Shown here: positions 33,977-40,505 of the stretch, piece by piece
How the letters are laid out: every line of letters starts with the position of its first letter
Numbering within the stretch: the stretch's first letter is position 1
Origin: Anaerobutyricum hallii
GTDB taxonomy: Bacteria > Bacillota > Clostridia > Lachnospirales > Lachnospiraceae
Direction: 5' to 3'
Assembly: GCF_900209925.1 (NCBI RefSeq)
Contig: NZ_LT907978.1
Span: 3,195,001 to 3,259,000 of the forward strand
Length of the DNA: 64,000 bases
The notes under the pieces: generated by a model
Seen by the model: the letters and a program-made list of their open reading frames with translations, nothing else
Told to the model about the DNA's origin: nothing
Database searches by the model: none
Translations under genes and position numbers: made by a program

Positions 33977-35263
33977 TCAATCATAATACACCCCATTCGT
34001 TTCAATCTCCACTTCAATACCATCCTCCACAAGGCTACGGAAAAATACTTTCTGTACAGATGTATCTTTTAAGAGAGAACTAAATGTAAATGTCAGCTCA
34101 TCTCCATAAGAACAGACCGTTGCTTTTGTATTCTGCCCGACAGAAGGCGATAATATGATCTGAAAACGCTTAATATATGGTTCATATGCTTTATCTACTA
34201 CCATTCTTCCCATATTTGTAATCGTTGTTGTTGTTGCCTTTGCACTCGTTAAATATACAAACTTTATTGCCGGTTTTTTCAAAAAAAGAGGGACGACCCG
34301 CAATGCATAATTCTTCTGATTCGACACATTATAGGCAATCATCCTTTCCAGATTTTCCTGCGTTATCTGCTTCTTCAACTCTTTCTGCACAAGCTTCATA
34401 ACTTCCTGCCGCTCATATTTTTCCTTTTCCGGTAAAAAGGCAGCACTCGCCATCGCAAAAAAGTTCCTTGTTGTCATTGATTCAAAAAACGACCGCAAAT
34501 TCACTGGAACACAAAGTACAATCGGCTTTTTCGAAGTATTTTCATGCAAATATCCTTTATAAATACTATATACAAAAATGCCAGATAAATATTCATTAAT
34601 ACTCATTCCAAGCTCTTTTGCCTTCTCTTTAAGCTGCTTCACTGACATATACCCATGAATAGTCCCTAGTTCACCTCGAACAAGATGTTCTCCCTTCATA
34701 TGCACTGCCGGAACAGACTTATAAGTCTTCTTCCCTGCCTTTTTATAATTCTTTAAATAACTGTCCTCCGTATCAAGCGATGTATCATCACAAAGCCGGT
34801 CACCCATCTCACCCGAAAGCTGCGGATAACAAATCCTCAAATACTGATATGTCAGCTCCCTTAAAAAATTCACTGCACCCATTCCATCTGCAAGCGCATG
34901 AAATACTTCCAAATTAATTCTATTTTTATAATAAGTAACACGAAAAAGATAATTTCTATTCTCATGACGTTCCACATAACGACAAGGAAAATCCTGTTCT
35001 TCCCGCACAACAGGCTTCCCTTTTGTATTTGTTTCAAAATAATACCAGAACATTCCTGTTCGCATCCGGACGTTCATCGTATTAAACCAGGGCAAAACCT
35101 GCTCTAACGCTTCCTGCAAACACTCCGGACGGATATCTTCAGAAAGAATCACCGCAATTCGATATACATTTGTCATCGTCTCATTCGCGATAACCGGAAA
35201 AAGATTCGCCGTATTATCAAGCTTCTCCCAACGCATTTCTTTTTTCTGAACCCTGCTTTTCAT
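33977..35263 (-). CDS. Alcohol acetyltransferase/condensation-like acyltransferase
   Basis: 428 residues with the HxxxD acyltransferase motif in EVFHALADGMGAVNFLREL, the signature of chloramphenicol-acetyltransferase-fold enzymes such as BAHD, condensation-domain and yeast ATF-type alcohol acyltransferases. A second conserved region (PVNLRSFFESMTTRNFFAM) lies near residue 255, typical of this superfamily. No carrier protein or ligase is nearby, so the acyl donor is probably an acyl-CoA. First gene of the operon with DUF6320 and the HSL esterase. Substrate unknown. Confidence 0.75.
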   Translation of the reverse strand: MKSRVQKKEMRWEKLDNTANLFPVIANETMTNVYRIAVILSEDIRPECLQEALEQVLPWFNTMNVRMRTGMFWYYFETNTKGKPVVREEQDFPCRYVERHENRNYLFRVTYYKNRINLEVFHALADGMGAVNFLRELTYQYLRICYPQLSGEMGDRLCDDTSLDTEDSYLKNYKKAGKKTYKSVPAVHMKGEHLVRGELGTIHGYMSVKQLKEKAKELGMSINEYLSGIFVYSIYKGYLHENTSKKPIVLCVPVNLRSFFESMTTRNFFAMASAAFLPEKEKYERQEVMKLVQKELKKQITQENLERMIAYNVSNQKNYALRVVPLFLKKPAIKFVYLTSAKATTTTITNMGRMVVDKAYEPYIKRFQIILSPSVGQNTKATVCSYGDELTFTFSSLLKDTSVQKVFFRSLVEDGIEVEIETNGVYYD

Positions 35264-36095: not shown

Positions 36096-36280
36096 CCCCA
36101 AATCTTTGAATTAATTTTGTCGGATTGGAATAAACAGAACACCGGCAATGTAAATAGATATAAATTGTGACTTGGAGCAAGCTCTTAATGCGGTTGAGCA
36201 TTAAGAGTGCAGTGATACGGAACAATTTATATCTATTTACATTGCCGGTGTTCGTCTACTTTACAACCTTACAAAATTAA
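36096..36280. repeat. 185-bp direct repeat, copy 2, terminator of the Trp-regulated operon
   Basis: Second copy of 35569-35753; palindrome at 36135-36257. It starts at the stop codon of the ABC ATPase, so it serves as the operon's terminator. Near-identity with copy 1 implies recent duplication or gene conversion. The inner junction words are TTGGAGCAAG and GCAGTGATACGGAAC. Confidence 0.92.
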
Positions 36281-37053
36281 CCTCTCTTATGTGCTTTTCC
36301 ATAAAAGAGTTCGGCTAATTTCCCGGTTGTCATTTCTTCTCGTTCTTTTCCGGTCAAATCCATAACTATTTTTCCGGAATCAAGCATGATCGTCCTGCTG
36401 CCATATTCCAGAGCATATTCCATATCATGCGTAATCATCAACGTAGTAATTTTATTTTCCTCAACGATTTTTTTCGTTAATGCCATAACTTTTTCGGCTG
36501 CACCAGGGTCAAGCGCAGCGGTATGTTCATCAAGTAATAAAAGTTCCGGCTCCGCAATCGTTGCCATTAAAAGAGAGGCCGCCTGGCGCTGTCCTCCGGA
36601 AAGAAGTCCAATTTTCGTTTTCATCCTGTCTTCAAGCCCCATTCCAAGGGTGGAAAGAACTTCTCTGAAATAGGAGCTGTCTTTTTTATTTAAGGCAAAG
36701 AAAGATGGGGAAGCCTTTCTTGTGTAAGCAAGGGCAAGGTTTTCCTCAATGGTGAGGTTCGGAGCTGTTCCACGAAGTGGATTCTGGTAAAGGCATCCGA
36801 TGTTTAAGGCACGTTTGTAGTCTTTTAATTTCGTAATGTCTTTATCCCCTAAATATACTTTTCCTTCGTCTGGAAAAAGGCTTCCGAGAATAACATTAAA
36901 CATCGTTGATTTTCCGGAACCGTTTGAGCCTAAAACTGTGACAAACTGCCCCGGCTCTACTGTAAGATTCAAATGATCAAGGGCAACCTTTTCATTGACA
37001 GTATTCGCCTCAAACTTTTTTGTAATATCCACAAGTTTTAACTGACTACTCAT
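36277..37053 (-). CDS. ABC transporter ATP-binding protein, TrpZ-like
   Basis: 258 residues with Walker A GSNGSGKST, Q-loop QNP, signature LSGGQRQA, Walker B LLLLDEH and the His switch MITHDMEYA. It powers import with the permease and lipoprotein encoded upstream; this class resembles the TrpXYZ/ABC_sub_bind family. ATGA overlap with the permease gene shows translational coupling. It is the last gene of the T-box(Trp) operon. Confidence 0.88.
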   Translation of the reverse strand: MSSQLKLVDITKKFEANTVNEKVALDHLNLTVEPGQFVTVLGSNGSGKSTMFNVILGSLFPDEGKVYLGDKDITKLKDYKRALNIGCLYQNPLRGTAPNLTIEENLALAYTRKASPSFFALNKKDSSYFREVLSTLGMGLEDRMKTKIGLLSGGQRQAASLLMATIAEPELLLLDEHTAALDPGAAEKVMALTKKIVEENKITTLMITHDMEYALEYGSRTIMLDSGKIVMDLTGKEREEMTTGKLAELFYGKAHKRG

Positions 37054-37991
37054 TTGCGGCTGCCCCCTTTCTTTTTATAATTCTTCTGCAGCCATGGGAT
37101 AACTAATGCGATCACAACGATAACTGCTGATAATAATTTGACTGCATAGCTTGGCATATCAACTTTGTAAGCAAGCTGAATGATAATGCGGTATAGCAAT
37201 GATCCAAGAACAACACCAACTGCCTGCACTGTCACTGAATGGGTTCCAAAGAATGTAAGACCGATGATTACTGAGGCAAGCCCCATAACAAGCATACCAT
37301 TTCCACAGTTTAAGTCTGCGTATTTCTGATACTGGCAAAGCAATGCTCCGGAAAATGCAACTAACGCATTGGATATCATTACGCCGCCAATCCTTGACAC
37401 GTCTGCATTGATCGAGGAGGAACGAACCATCTCTTCATTATCTCCTGTCGCAATAATCGCCATACCATTTCTTGTACGAAAAAATGTAACAAGTACCGCA
37501 CAGGTTATAACCACAATAATCATAGTAAGTAAAAATGCAACCATACTAGAAGACATATTTTGCCCAAATGCTCTCTGAAACATCTTGTATACAGTATCTG
37601 CCGGTTTATTTACTGTAACCCCAAGGCTGTTCTTTGTCTCATACTGTAAATAACGATTAGACTGTCCGCCTAAAATAGCATAATTTACTGTATACAAGCC
37701 GGTCATTGTAAGGATACCGGATAAGATCGGTTCTATTTTTAACTTTGTCTGTAAAAGTCCTGTGCAAAGCCCTGCCGCCGCACCGGCAAGTGTACCGGCA
37801 ATAAGTCCTAAAATCGGATGACCTGCGATTGAAATGATAACACAAGAGGTCATTCCAAATACGAAACTCCCTTCCACAGTAAGGTCGGGAGTTTTTAAAA
37901 TACTAAATGTCAGAAAAACGCCCAGGGCCATAGGGGCATAAATAAACCCCTGGCCGAGAGCGGAAACTAACATACCTGCTATTTCACTCAT
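37050..37991 (-). CDS. ABC transporter permease, TrpY-like
   Basis: 313 residues, about nine hydrophobic segments of the LivH/BPD_transp_2 type (FIYAPMALGVFLTFSILKTP DLTVEGSF..., GTLAGAAAGLCTGLL, MVMGLASVIIGLTFFG, KLLSAVIVVIALVIPWLQ). It forms the membrane channel with the ATPase. The same fold and motifs (NFADLTVDGSF) appear in the second transporter at 61179-62117, so the two are paralogues. Confidence 0.87.
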   Translation of the reverse strand: MSEIAGMLVSALGQGFIYAPMALGVFLTFSILKTPDLTVEGSFVFGMTSCVIISIAGHPILGLIAGTLAGAAAGLCTGLLQTKLKIEPILSGILTMTGLYTVNYAILGGQSNRYLQYETKNSLGVTVNKPADTVYKMFQRAFGQNMSSSMVAFLLTMIIVVITCAVLVTFFRTRNGMAIIATGDNEEMVRSSSINADVSRIGGVMISNALVAFSGALLCQYQKYADLNCGNGMLVMGLASVIIGLTFFGTHSVTVQAVGVVLGSLLYRIIIQLAYKVDMPSYAVKLLSAVIVVIALVIPWLQKNYKKKGGSRK

Positions 37992-38045
37992 GTTTCTATC
38001 CTCAATTCTAATTATGTTTCATAATTTATCATCATATGCATTTAA

Positions 38046-39071
38046 TTATTTATTAAAATGACTTGTTCCGTCCTCTTCTACAAGTACATCAAATCCTTCA
38101 AATGCCTTTTTATCAAAGTTTCCGCCAAACTGTTTTACAGCCTGCATATTTACGTATTTGGCGTAATCAGAAATTGTCTCATAAGGAATATCGAAAGGCT
38201 TCTCCCCATTTGCAATTTTTTCTACCATGTCAGCAACCTGTTTTCCAAGCTGTACATAATTTACACCAACTGTTGCAAATCCACCATCTGCAACCATGGA
38301 ATCTGCACCACAGTAAATAGGAATCTTCTTTGCATAAGCAGCATCTGTATATGTTGCCATTGCGGAAGCGATTGTATTATCATTACCGGTATAAAGAGCA
38401 TCTACTCCTTTGGAAATCAGAGATTCTACAGCTGTCTGAAGTTCAGAAACGTTAGCAATAGAGGACTCTTCATAAGCAATCTTGTTATCATCACAGTATT
38501 TCTTTGCTGCTGTAATCGTTGATACGGAGTTTGTTTCGCTGGATGTATACAGGAAGCCAATCTTCTTATAATCCGGCTGGAAGTTCGCGATCAGCTTAAC
38601 GATTTCATCTGCTGGAATATTGTTAGAAACACCTGTGATGTTCGCACAATCTTCTCCTGTAAGACCTGCTGCTTCCGGATCAGAAACTGCTGCAAATACG
38701 ATCGGGGTATCTTCTCCATCATAAACACTCTTTGCTGTCTGCGCGGTAGAAGTTGCGATAGGCACAACAATATCAACGCCATCTGATTTATAGTTTTCAA
38801 TGATAGAGCTTAATGCAGTAGTATCCCCATTTGCATTATCCGTTACTACTTTAATATTCTCATCTTTTCCAAGTTCAGAAGTAATCGTATCACGAATCTG
38901 ATCAAGGGAAGTGTGTGACATCGGCTGTACAACTGCCACCGTAACCTGCTTTCCTGACTTATTTCCTGTACTTCCTTCTGCACTCTTATCAGAGCCACAT
39001 CCTGTTAAACAAAGCGTACCAACCATTGCTGCCATAATCACTGCACTTACAAATCTTTTCATCTTTCTCAT
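38046..39071 (-). CDS. ABC transporter substrate-binding lipoprotein, TrpX-like
   Basis: 341 residues starting at ATG 39071 (MRKMKRFVSAVIMAAMVGTL), with a lipobox LTGCGS (Cys near 25) and an ABC_sub_bind fold (VAVVQPMSHTSLDQIRDTI, IVFAAVSDPEAAGL, GVSNNIPADEIV, YTGNDNTIASAM). The longer frame overlapping the dehydrogenase lacks a ribosome binding site; GAAAGGA precedes the chosen ATG. With a tRNA-Trp T-box upstream it probably captures tryptophan or a close derivative; this is inference. Confidence 0.88.
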   Translation of the reverse strand: MRKMKRFVSAVIMAAMVGTLCLTGCGSDKSAEGSTGNKSGKQVTVAVVQPMSHTSLDQIRDTITSELGKDENIKVVTDNANGDTTALSSIIENYKSDGVDIVVPIATSTAQTAKSVYDGEDTPIVFAAVSDPEAAGLTGEDCANITGVSNNIPADEIVKLIANFQPDYKKIGFLYTSSETNSVSTITAAKKYCDDNKIAYEESSIANVSELQTAVESLISKGVDALYTGNDNTIASAMATYTDAAYAKKIPIYCGADSMVADGGFATVGVNYVQLGKQVADMVEKIANGEKPFDIPYETISDYAKYVNMQAVKQFGGNFDKKAFEGFDVLVEEDGTSHFNK

Positions 39072-39105
39072 TTTCTTTTCCTTTCTATATCTGTTGTCCG
39101 AAGTT

Positions 39106-40020
39106 CTAATCTTGACTTGCCGTTTCAATATGTTGCTTTATAATCTCGCAAGATCTATTAAGCATTTCCTGCTCTTCTTCTGTCAGTGGAAGTTCTATAA
39201 TCTTCTCAATTCCATTCTTTCCGATGAGGCAAGGAACACCGCAGTGTACATCATATTGTCCGTATTCACCCTGAAGAAGAACGGAAGCAGGCATGATTTT
39301 TTTCTCATCGCGTAGGATACAGGCTGCCATTTCAGTTAAAGCTCTGCCGATACCGAATTCCGTTGACTTTTTGCCCTCGATGATCGTCATTCCAATCTGT
39401 CTTGTTGCTTCTAAAACTTTCTCCTTTGAAATGTTATACTCATCAAATGGAATTCCTCCGATTGTTACTGTTGAAAATGGAATCATAGAAGAATCTCCAT
39501 GCTCTCCAAGTGAAAAAGCCTGGATGGAATGCCTTGACACACCAGATTCTTCACTGAGTGTCCGAATCAGTCTTGCTGTATCAAGCAAAGTTCCTGTACC
39601 AAATACTTTGTTTCGCTTTAATCCAAGCCCCTTTCTTACAAAATCCGCTACAATATCCGCCGGATTTGTAATCGTCACAACAATTCCTGAAATCTTGTAA
39701 GGACTCAGCTGTGCAAGCAGCTCTTTTAGCATTTCCACCGAACGACCTAACATATCAAGTCTTGTCTGTCCCGGCTTTCTCGCCTCTCCGATTGCTATAA
39801 CAACAATCGCTGCATCTTCACAATCCTTATAATCTCCGCTTCTGACCACTGTCTCCCTCTCACAGAAACTAACACTATCTGCAATATCAAGTGCCTGTGC
39901 ATATGCCTTATCTTTATCCACATCTACAAGAACAATCTCATCTGTTATCCCCGAATGTGCCAATGTATATCCACAGTGGGAACCGACATGACCAGCTCCG
40001 ATAATCACAACCTTTCGCAT
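39106..40020 (-). CDS. LDH/MDH-family L-2-hydroxyacid dehydrogenase in a Trp T-box operon
   Basis: 304 residues. NAD fold VVIIGAGHVGSHCGYTLA, the active loop GEARKPGQTRLDML, ITNPADIV, GTGTLLDTARL (substrate Arg) and the catalytic His in SLGEHGDSSMIPFS. In lactate dehydrogenases the specificity position (102) is Gln in NQKPGETR; here it is Arg (ARKPGQTR), which in this family usually marks malate dehydrogenase or another unusual substrate. The start ATG at 40020 is 6 nt after AAGGAGG. It is the first gene after the Trp T-box and is followed by the TrpXYZ-like transporter, so a role on indolelactate/indolepyruvate is attractive but the Arg argues for caution. Confidence 0.85.
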   Translation of the reverse strand: MRKVVIIGAGHVGSHCGYTLAHSGITDEIVLVDVDKDKAYAQALDIADSVSFCERETVVRSGDYKDCEDAAIVVIAIGEARKPGQTRLDMLGRSVEMLKELLAQLSPYKISGIVVTITNPADIVADFVRKGLGLKRNKVFGTGTLLDTARLIRTLSEESGVSRHSIQAFSLGEHGDSSMIPFSTVTIGGIPFDEYNISKEKVLEATRQIGMTIIEGKKSTEFGIGRALTEMAACILRDEKKIMPASVLLQGEYGQYDVHCGVPCLIGKNGIEKIIELPLTEEEQEMLNRSCEIIKQHIETASQD

Positions 40021-40117
40021 TTTCATCCTCCTTATCCACAATTATCAAAACATACTCATACAGCCTTTTCATTCCTCACCATTATAGAAATAGGAATCTT
40101 TTTACAGAAACGTAATC

Positions 40118-40151
40118 TCCTGAAAGAGATGGGATTCTTCTCGACTGAGAT
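40118..40151. repeat. Short hairpin remnant between T-box terminator and dehydrogenase
   Basis: CTCCTGAAAGAGATGGGATT then CTTCTCGACTGAGATAA resembles the remnant at 31310-31346 (AGGTGGGAGTCTTCTTGACT). It lies in the 5' untranslated region of the dehydrogenase mRNA. Confidence 0.4.
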
Positions 40152-40470
40152 AAAAAAACGTCCCTGACAAATATTCTCTATCTGTCAAGGACGGGTAAAA
40201 TTCTAAAACTTCTCCCGCGGTACCACCTTGCTTCATGAAACTCTTCATGCACTCACAGGATACGCATCATATCCCTGACAACTAACGTATGTCTTCACGT
40301 CACTGCTAATAAGCAGGTATCCTGCCGTTCACACTGCCCTCCATGGCCCACTTGACAATCTGCGTTCTGTCCGGTTCTCAGCATCCCGGTCTCTCTGTAA
40401 GTGCATCAATCGCCCTAACTTCCACATCATCGGTTTAATTAAATGTCCGCTGTATTCGTTTTTTAAGATG
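40152..40470 (-). ncRNA. T-box leader specific for tRNA-Trp
   Basis: Full T-box leader: AG-bulge region AGAGAGACCGGGATGCTGAG, specifier loop CAAGTGGGCCATGGAG with codon TGG (40348-40350), T-box core AAGGTGGTACCGCGGGAG (around 40216-40228), and a terminator with arms GTCCTTGACAGA / TTGTCAGGGAC plus T7 (40152-40193). Aligning it with the ileS leader (GAAT-ATC-ACTCCTGAG) puts TGG exactly in the specifier position. Uncharged tRNA-Trp should switch on the dehydrogenase and transporter operon. Confidence 0.9.
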
Positions 40471-40475
40471 AGTTG

Positions 40476-40505
40476 ATTATATACCCATATACCAGGGAAA
40501 GTCAA
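40476..40505 (-). promoter_or_regulatory. Promoter of the Trp T-box operon
   Basis: TTGACT (40500-40505), 18-bp spacer, TATAAT (40476-40481) on the minus strand, immediately after the blaI-like stop codon. No separate terminator for the blaI-like gene is seen between them. Confidence 0.8.

Follow-up and report, generated by a model that had tools for sequence, protein, structure and literature searches.

Tryptophan importers of the TrpXYZ type have their genes in the order substrate-binding lipoprotein, permease, ATPase, and the closest described counterpart of the operon reported here is the TrpXYZ of Streptococcus suis, which functions in tryptophan uptake and is preceded by a T-box with a tryptophan specifier (PMC9382623, cited here, like PMC8556157 and PMC6816091, for what excerpts of the papers state). 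That paper's main text does not contain the word 'dehydrogenase'. An enzyme to compare with is the aromatic lactate dehydrogenase (ALDH, a type 4 lactate dehydrogenase) of Bifidobacterium, which reduces indolepyruvate to indolelactate with a preference for indolepyruvate and belongs to a genetic element with a transaminase gene (PMC8556157, without the word 'transporter' in its main text). We analysed a 64,000-nucleotide stretch of the Anaerobutyricum hallii genome (contig NZ_LT907978.1, positions 3,195,001 to 3,259,000; hereafter the window, to which all coordinates refer), in which a tryptophan T-box is followed by a gene for a 2-hydroxyacid dehydrogenase of the lactate dehydrogenase (LDH) family and by the three genes of a TrpXYZ-like ATP-binding cassette (ABC) transporter. 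The system is thus of a known kind, with what appears from sequence comparison to be a new pairing: a dehydrogenase as the first gene, and an altered ligand site in the binding protein. We think it probable that the operon is a salvage unit used in tryptophan starvation for a 2-hydroxy analogue of tryptophan, most likely L-indole-3-lactate. No dehydrogenase under a tryptophan T-box was found in the literature searched, which does not establish its absence from print; in the main texts of PMC2494555 and PMC3766115, neither 'dehydrogenase' nor 'lactate' occurs.

An earlier note on this DNA had described a T-box with a tryptophan specifier, a terminator ahead of the dehydrogenase gene and four genes in tight order, and the combination of tryptophan T-box, dehydrogenase and TrpXYZ-like genes is confirmed. 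The leader matches the T-box model RF00230 with 71.8 bits (E 1.3e-15, cmscan on a 600-base stretch), and the model alignment places UGG at the specifier position, adjoined by the helix TGTGG/CCATG. Because the score lies below the Rfam gathering score of 93, a default Rfam scan shows only a tRNA and misses the T-box. A search of the whole genome (3.5 Mb) gave 11 T-boxes including this leader (E 1.8e-15), and five of the 11, among them the window leader, score under the gathering cut-off. The terminator adjoins the antiterminator, as expected of a T-box, and its segment 40159-40193 folds at -20.9 kcal/mol (z -7.3), a stability reached by none of 200 shuffled sequences. From its membership of the T-box family the leader is predicted to respond to uncharged tRNA-Trp. 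The gaps along the four genes are 34 nt and 54 nt, followed by a 4-nt overlap, and the folds of the dehydrogenase and the binding protein are clear from solved relatives. The features are collected in Table 1.

Table 1. Features of the tryptophan T-box operon in the window.
Feature	Position	Strand	Evidence
Sigma-70-type promoter, TTGACT-18-TATAAT	40476..40505	-	consensus match only, 11/12
T-box leader, Rfam RF00230	40184..40439	-	cmscan, full model 1-219 of 219
Specifier codon UGG (Trp)	40348..40350	-	covariance-model alignment
T-box sequence AAGGTGGTACCGCG, antiterminator side	40216..40229	-	sequence and model alignment
Intrinsic terminator with U-run	40152..40193	-	folding and terminator scan
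LDH-family 2-hydroxyacid dehydrogenase, 304 aa	39106..40020	-	Pfam Ldh_1_N/C, NCBIfam, PDB relatives
TrpX-like lipoprotein, solute-binding protein	38046..39071	-	ABC_sub_bind PF04392, 198.9 bits
Codon AAC, Asn at the ligand-site position of S. suis D152	38622..38624	-	alignments
ABC permease, TrpY-like	37050..37991	-	PF02653 (BPD_transp_2)
ABC ATPase, TrpZ-like	36277..37053	-	PF00005

The same gene order recurs in related genomes, where the earlier note had proposed to look for it. Among 31 loci with an LDH relative, taken from named genomes, 19 have the order LDH, TrpX, permease, ATPase (17 complete, and two, L058 and L062, at a contig end); L050 retains transporter fragments only, L075 lies at a contig end, and nine more distant relatives lack the set. 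The host genomes belong to Lachnospiraceae, Oscillospiraceae and relatives, with two from Spirochaetaceae. A T-box motif was present upstream of the LDH gene in 19 of the 21 group members with readable upstream DNA; it was absent ahead of LDH in the two Spirochaetaceae operons and in 0 of 10 cases preceded a more distant LDH relative. All 19 leaders examined (18 loci and the window; the truncated leader of L059 was omitted from the extraction) have a UGG specifier, and the helix next to it covaries across leaders (TGTGG/CCACG, CGCAGG/CCTGCG, AGCAGA/TCTGCT). Since the order recurs, a T-box precedes the LDH gene and the specifier is invariably UGG, the arrangement is not due to chance. The cassette is rare: of 150 genomes from one Oscillospiraceae-type family, only 4 (counting the centre genome of the sample) encode an LDH with 59% identity or more, and no further LDH above 53% identity was found in 200 genomes of the window's own family.

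The dehydrogenase passed the L-lactate dehydrogenase model TIGR01771 (322.5 bits, cut-off 303.55) and failed the malate dehydrogenase model TIGR01763 (209.8 bits, cut-off 351.85), on which score a plain malate dehydrogenase was rejected. Residue tables place D147, R150, H174 and R87 at what we take to be the catalytic Asp, Arg, His and Arg of the LDH family, all retained. Unlike L-lactate dehydrogenase, for which Gln102 is presumably the hallmark, the window enzyme and the operon copies have Arg at position 102 (R81 in the window), and the window enzyme has the motif STEFGIG, which includes T220-E221, instead of an ATYYGI-like one. The Arg is found in every tryptophan-linked LDH aligned, i.e., the operon copies and two convergently oriented ones. 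In the tree the operon enzymes fall in a separate clade of 38 rows (support 100/99), mostly with the motif TEFGIG, apart from the other two LDH-family genes of the genome (L012, L013), and the window LDH is 91% identical to the copy of A. hallii DSM 3353 (L045).

Thermodynamics favour reduction by such enzymes, and this would suit a role in the opposite direction, with NAD regenerated by the reduction of indolepyruvate, whether imported or formed by transamination, to indolelactate, as in Bifidobacterium. Compared by description only, the Bifidobacterium ALDH is similar in its LDH-family membership and its reported indolepyruvate preference, and it differs in making indolelactate and in lying next to a transaminase gene (PMC8556157), which also speaks for a reducing role. 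Nevertheless, we regard this role as very improbable because of the sign of regulation: a UGG T-box would turn on the disposal of tryptophan just when tryptophan is scarce. In addition, the cassette comprises an importer and no aminotransferase.

The binding protein has the TrpX equivalog NF041285 as its best NCBIfam model (243.1 bits, under the cut-off of 390), and its relatives in the PDB are 3LFT, with bound tryptophan, and 6HNI, with bound tyrosine. In S. suis TrpX the ligand-site residues are T108, A127, T129, D152, N233 and Q273, and the position of D152 was Asp in the proteins compared, except in Streptococcus pyogenes, where it is Asn (PMC9382623). The window system resembles that of S. 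suis in its tryptophan-specifier T-box, its order of lipoprotein, permease and ATPase genes and its homologous binding protein, but has Asn where S. suis TrpX has this Asp. The replacement was found in 20 of the 20 operon copies aligned, in which T108, A127 and N233 are kept and the T129 position is Ser or Ala. The tyrosine-binding lipoprotein CD0873 of Clostridioides difficile (6HNI), a member of the same family sharing most ligand-site residues, has a Glu for the tyrosine hydroxyl and the ligand-site Asp, where the window protein has Ala and Asn (PMC6816091). As the amino and acid groups of the ligand are held alike in the tyrosine-, phenylalanine- and tryptophan-bound proteins of the family (PMC6816091), the Asp probably holds the ammonium group of the ligand.

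Phenylalanine, tyrosine and tryptophan binders of the TrpX family differ in only two side-chain-selecting residues (PMC6816091), and the operon copies keep Tyr at a position where the tryptophan binder SP1069 has Gln (Gln284). Both points would be compatible with the same logic applied to another cargo, such as phenyllactate, 4-hydroxyphenyllactate, a mixture of these, or the keto acid itself. We consider this quite unlikely, given the UGG specifier in all leaders examined; a keto acid, moreover, would not require a dehydrogenase. The Tyr was rejected as an argument against an indole cargo because twelve Asp-type TrpXYZ systems with UGG T-boxes, unlinked to a dehydrogenase, share it.

These twelve come from a control within the window's own family, which consisted of the best 29 TrpX-family genes besides the window's from 200 genomes (L103-L131). 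Of these, 26 have Asp and three have Asn (L112, L121, L128), the latter forming a separate TrpX subtype with additional changes. L112 lies behind an iron-type alcohol dehydrogenase (Fe-ADH), and at none of the other 28 did the 1.5-kb flanks contain a match to LDH or Fe-ADH; the unlinked TrpX of the family are therefore Asp in 26 of 28 cases. When 17 of the control loci were scanned with cmscan, T-boxes were found at 14. Twelve of these are Asp-type, and inspection by eye showed UGG as the specifier in each, so that the contrast between Asp and Asn is not due to the regulator.

A wider sample of the class was drawn from 391 genomes (among the matches listed, the first 30 loci and 40 picked down the list; 76 TrpX genes), with most of the window's own family and some loci close to contig ends left out. 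It contained 67 Asp-type TrpX genes, none adjoining an LDH or Fe-ADH gene, and nine Asn-type ones: five beside an Fe-ADH, the window's own, two by a convergent LDH, and one (L290_2) with neither. The two with a convergent LDH alongside (L162, L165) are TrpXYZ sets with a UGG T-box, their LDH genes having been seen beyond the short flanks used for the sample. Consequently, 8 of 8 dehydrogenase-adjacent genes are Asn-type, versus 67 of 68 others with Asp (Fisher's test, 4.8e-10, or 4.0e-9 without the window, kinship ignored); at three loci with fewer than 900 bases upstream a neighbour may have been missed. In a set of 130 rows, linked TrpX had Asn in 31 of 31 cases, and the 99 counted as unlinked comprised 96 with Asp and three with Asn (93 of 96 with Asp once two PDB rows with unseen neighbours are taken out together with the locus L067). 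The association of Asn with a dehydrogenase is nearly strict, yet it rests on few origins. Outside the operon clade, L162 and L165 have as sister the Asp-type L103 (support 100/98), in whose genome no LDH was found at E 1e-20.

A second TrpX-like gene is present in the window's genome. Three clustered TrpX-like genes were seen at L290 (G663:C1:3423000-3436500), the third of them Asn-type without an adjoining dehydrogenase, and at another locus (L164) this genome carries a tandem pair of TEFGIG-clade LDHs.

In nine loci an Fe-ADH (PF00465) stands directly 5' of an Asn-type TrpX, i.e., in the place held by the LDH in the window (G071, G170, G017 and G174, corresponding to L225-L228, and L258, L259, L260, L295 and L304). 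A UGG T-box precedes the Fe-ADH in four of the nine (G071 and G170, L225 and L226; G455 and G549, L326 and L327); automated extraction gave no UGG for L225 and L226, and their specifier was read from the cmscan alignment. In G059 (L229, G059:C18) a UGG T-box precedes a lone Fe-ADH with no transporter alongside. At L064 an LDH relative is followed by an Fe-ADH of the same family, 59% identical to the G071 gene, and such Fe-ADHs adjoin an aminotransferase gene in L239, L241, L243 and L245. The window's genome also contains one, divergent from an aminotransferase-like gene (L281, G000:C1:962000-975000). The TrpX proteins linked to Fe-ADH differ in additional residues, with Ser or Ala for N233 and Asp for Q273, which, as a speculation, might suit the other enantiomer.

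The operon might alternatively encode an ordinary tryptophan importer under tryptophan control, with a functionally unrelated dehydrogenase (pyruvate or malate turnover) and an Asn that is neutral or tunes affinity. Dehydrogenase-free TrpXYZ sets under tryptophan T-boxes are common in the window's own family, Arg102 recalls malate dehydrogenase, the S. suis TrpXYZ takes up tryptophan, and Asn also occurs in the S. pyogenes TrpX (PMC9382623). On the other hand, the cassette keeps the LDH in first place in different families and in two phyla, the operon LDHs branch apart from the two remaining LDH-family genes of the genome, an unrelated dehydrogenase occupies the same slot, and Asn accompanies the dehydrogenase in every linked row. 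We therefore judge a plain importer unlikely.

The LDH clade offers a parallel in which the amino acid is probably methionine. In L077, L078, L079 and L163 a sister LDH is flanked by MetI- and MetQ-like genes. All four of these MetNIQ-type clusters include an aminotransferase that resembles methionine aminotransferases, three also have an FAD-linked oxidase, and an M20 amidohydrolase occurs in two; L217, L218 and L219 have MetNIQ-like genes, the oxidase and part of the remaining set. In L077, the matches to MetN, MetI, MetQ and the aminotransferase all score under the curated cut-offs. The methionine-linked LDHs are 66-82% identical to the L077 copy, and the three compared are 42-44% identical to the window LDH, from which they differ in the position-102 loop (PDMS or PDKN). 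A search for RNA elements near L077-L079 and near the two Spirochaetaceae operons turned up a single tRNA. The gene content looks like salvage of hydroxy, perhaps N-acyl, forms of methionine, and a literature search for clusters handling the methionine hydroxy analogue yielded nothing. Because of this context, hydroxy-acid oxidation as the job of the LDH clade gains independent weight.

The earlier note had suggested salvage of tryptophan from indolelactate or indolepyruvate, with either tryptophan or the hydroxy acid as the cargo of the transporter. The comparative evidence points to the hydroxy acid, tryptophan being less favoured: salvage of a hydroxy acid is preferred to plain tryptophan import because of the Asn site, the second, unrelated dehydrogenase and the methionine parallel.

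Several observations weigh against such salvage and are considered together here. Arg102 is, we assume, the malate dehydrogenase (oxaloacetate) determinant of the LDH/malate dehydrogenase family. Oxidation of a hydroxy acid by NAD is energetically uphill and requires a pull, and none of the four operon genes encodes an aminotransferase. The ammonium-binding role of the ligand-site Asp is deduced, not taken from coordinates, and the S. pyogenes TrpX with Asn at this position stands in a gene context that was not seen (PMC9382623). Concerning the association itself, at L067 an Asp-type TrpX and a divergently oriented LDH relative are 0.8 kb apart, which lowers the linked count to 31 of 32 if it is included, and Asn occurs without an adjacent dehydrogenase in L121, L128 and L290_2. 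In the 130-row tree the two labels change only 4 and 5 times, indicating few independent origins, and a sign test on independent pairs, of which there are four on starred branches, gave two changing the same way and none the opposite way (p 0.5). A T-box and LDH occur without a transporter in L047 and with mere transporter fragments in L050, and no T-box was detected at five of the nine Fe-ADH-TrpX loci (G017 and G174, for which 1.5 kb upstream was covered, L328, L295 and L304).

A further point on the same side comes from tryptophan biosynthesis. Elsewhere in the genome, a trpE-like gene and a trpD-like one (named by eye) are each preceded by a UGG T-box, and trpA is present about 5 kb past the T-box of the trpE-like gene, whose specifier was read by eye after automated extraction had given no UGG. 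Among genomes with the operon trpA is missing in 12 of 19, versus 106 of 150 in the background, i.e., without enrichment; the background is one Oscillospiraceae-type family, both sets include draft genomes, one of the seven trpA matches is a fragment at a contig end, and the genomes of L070 and L047 were not included. The operon was accordingly rejected as a marker of tryptophan auxotrophs. The trpD-like gene with its own UGG T-box (L011, G000:C1:1967744-1968018) lies apart from the trpE-trpA region. The earlier suggestion of salvage is backed along three comparative lines (the Asn site, the Fe-ADH in the same slot, the methionine parallel), whereas Arg102 and the lack of enrichment in genomes without trpA speak against it.

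Import and oxidation of indolelactate during tryptophan shortage is, in our best reading, the cheapest account of a T-box, an importer, an altered ligand site and a dehydrogenase in one operon. Rising uncharged tRNA-Trp would pair with the UGG specifier and prevent termination. The TrpX-like protein, with Asn in place of the putative ammonium-binding Asp, would then bind a 2-hydroxy acid, most likely L-indole-3-lactate released by neighbouring gut bacteria, which the permease and ATPase would import. An LDH-family enzyme, presumably NAD-dependent, would oxidise it, and the resulting indole-3-pyruvate would be converted to tryptophan by an aminotransferase whose gene lies outside the operon.

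Around the operon, the promoter candidate (40505-40476) ranks first of 10 in its region, where 11.4 of any quality are expected by chance, and a gene for a BlaI/MecI-like repressor ends with its stop codon immediately 5' of it on the minus strand. Just 3' of the ATPase gene there is a perfect 32-bp inverted repeat (arms 36137-36168 and 36222-36253, 53 nt apart), longer than a usual terminator. The region 33977-35263 encodes a 428-aa protein with a condensation-like HxxxDG motif (seen by eye), and the operons of A. hallii (L045) and Eubacterium SUG709 (L063) likewise have a gene for a homologue immediately past their 3' end.

More tentatively, gut Clostridia may own a general class of salvage cassettes for the hydroxy analogues of amino acids. 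A starvation-controlled importer re-tuned from Asp to Asn would be joined in them by a stereospecific dehydrogenase from at least two unrelated families, the LDH type for L-indolelactate and the iron type perhaps for D-indolelactate, with a methionine counterpart made up of a MetNIQ-type importer, hydroxyacid dehydrogenases and an aminotransferase. The tryptophan cassettes could in that case be dedicated consumers of indole-3-lactate from bifidobacteria and other gut microbes; no report of dedicated indolelactate users was found in the literature searched, which does not establish their absence from print.

Among the bioactive metabolites of the infant gut is indole-3-lactate, whose makers are known (PMC8556157). 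If the salvage reading is true, a common gut genus would reclaim it as tryptophan, in a cross-feeding loop that would alter the amount reaching the host. It would also explain why the first gene under tryptophan control matches the model of an L-lactate dehydrogenase, and would provide a rule readable from genomes, Asn in TrpX together with an adjacent dehydrogenase, by which, within this family, hydroxy-acid importers could be separated from amino acid importers.

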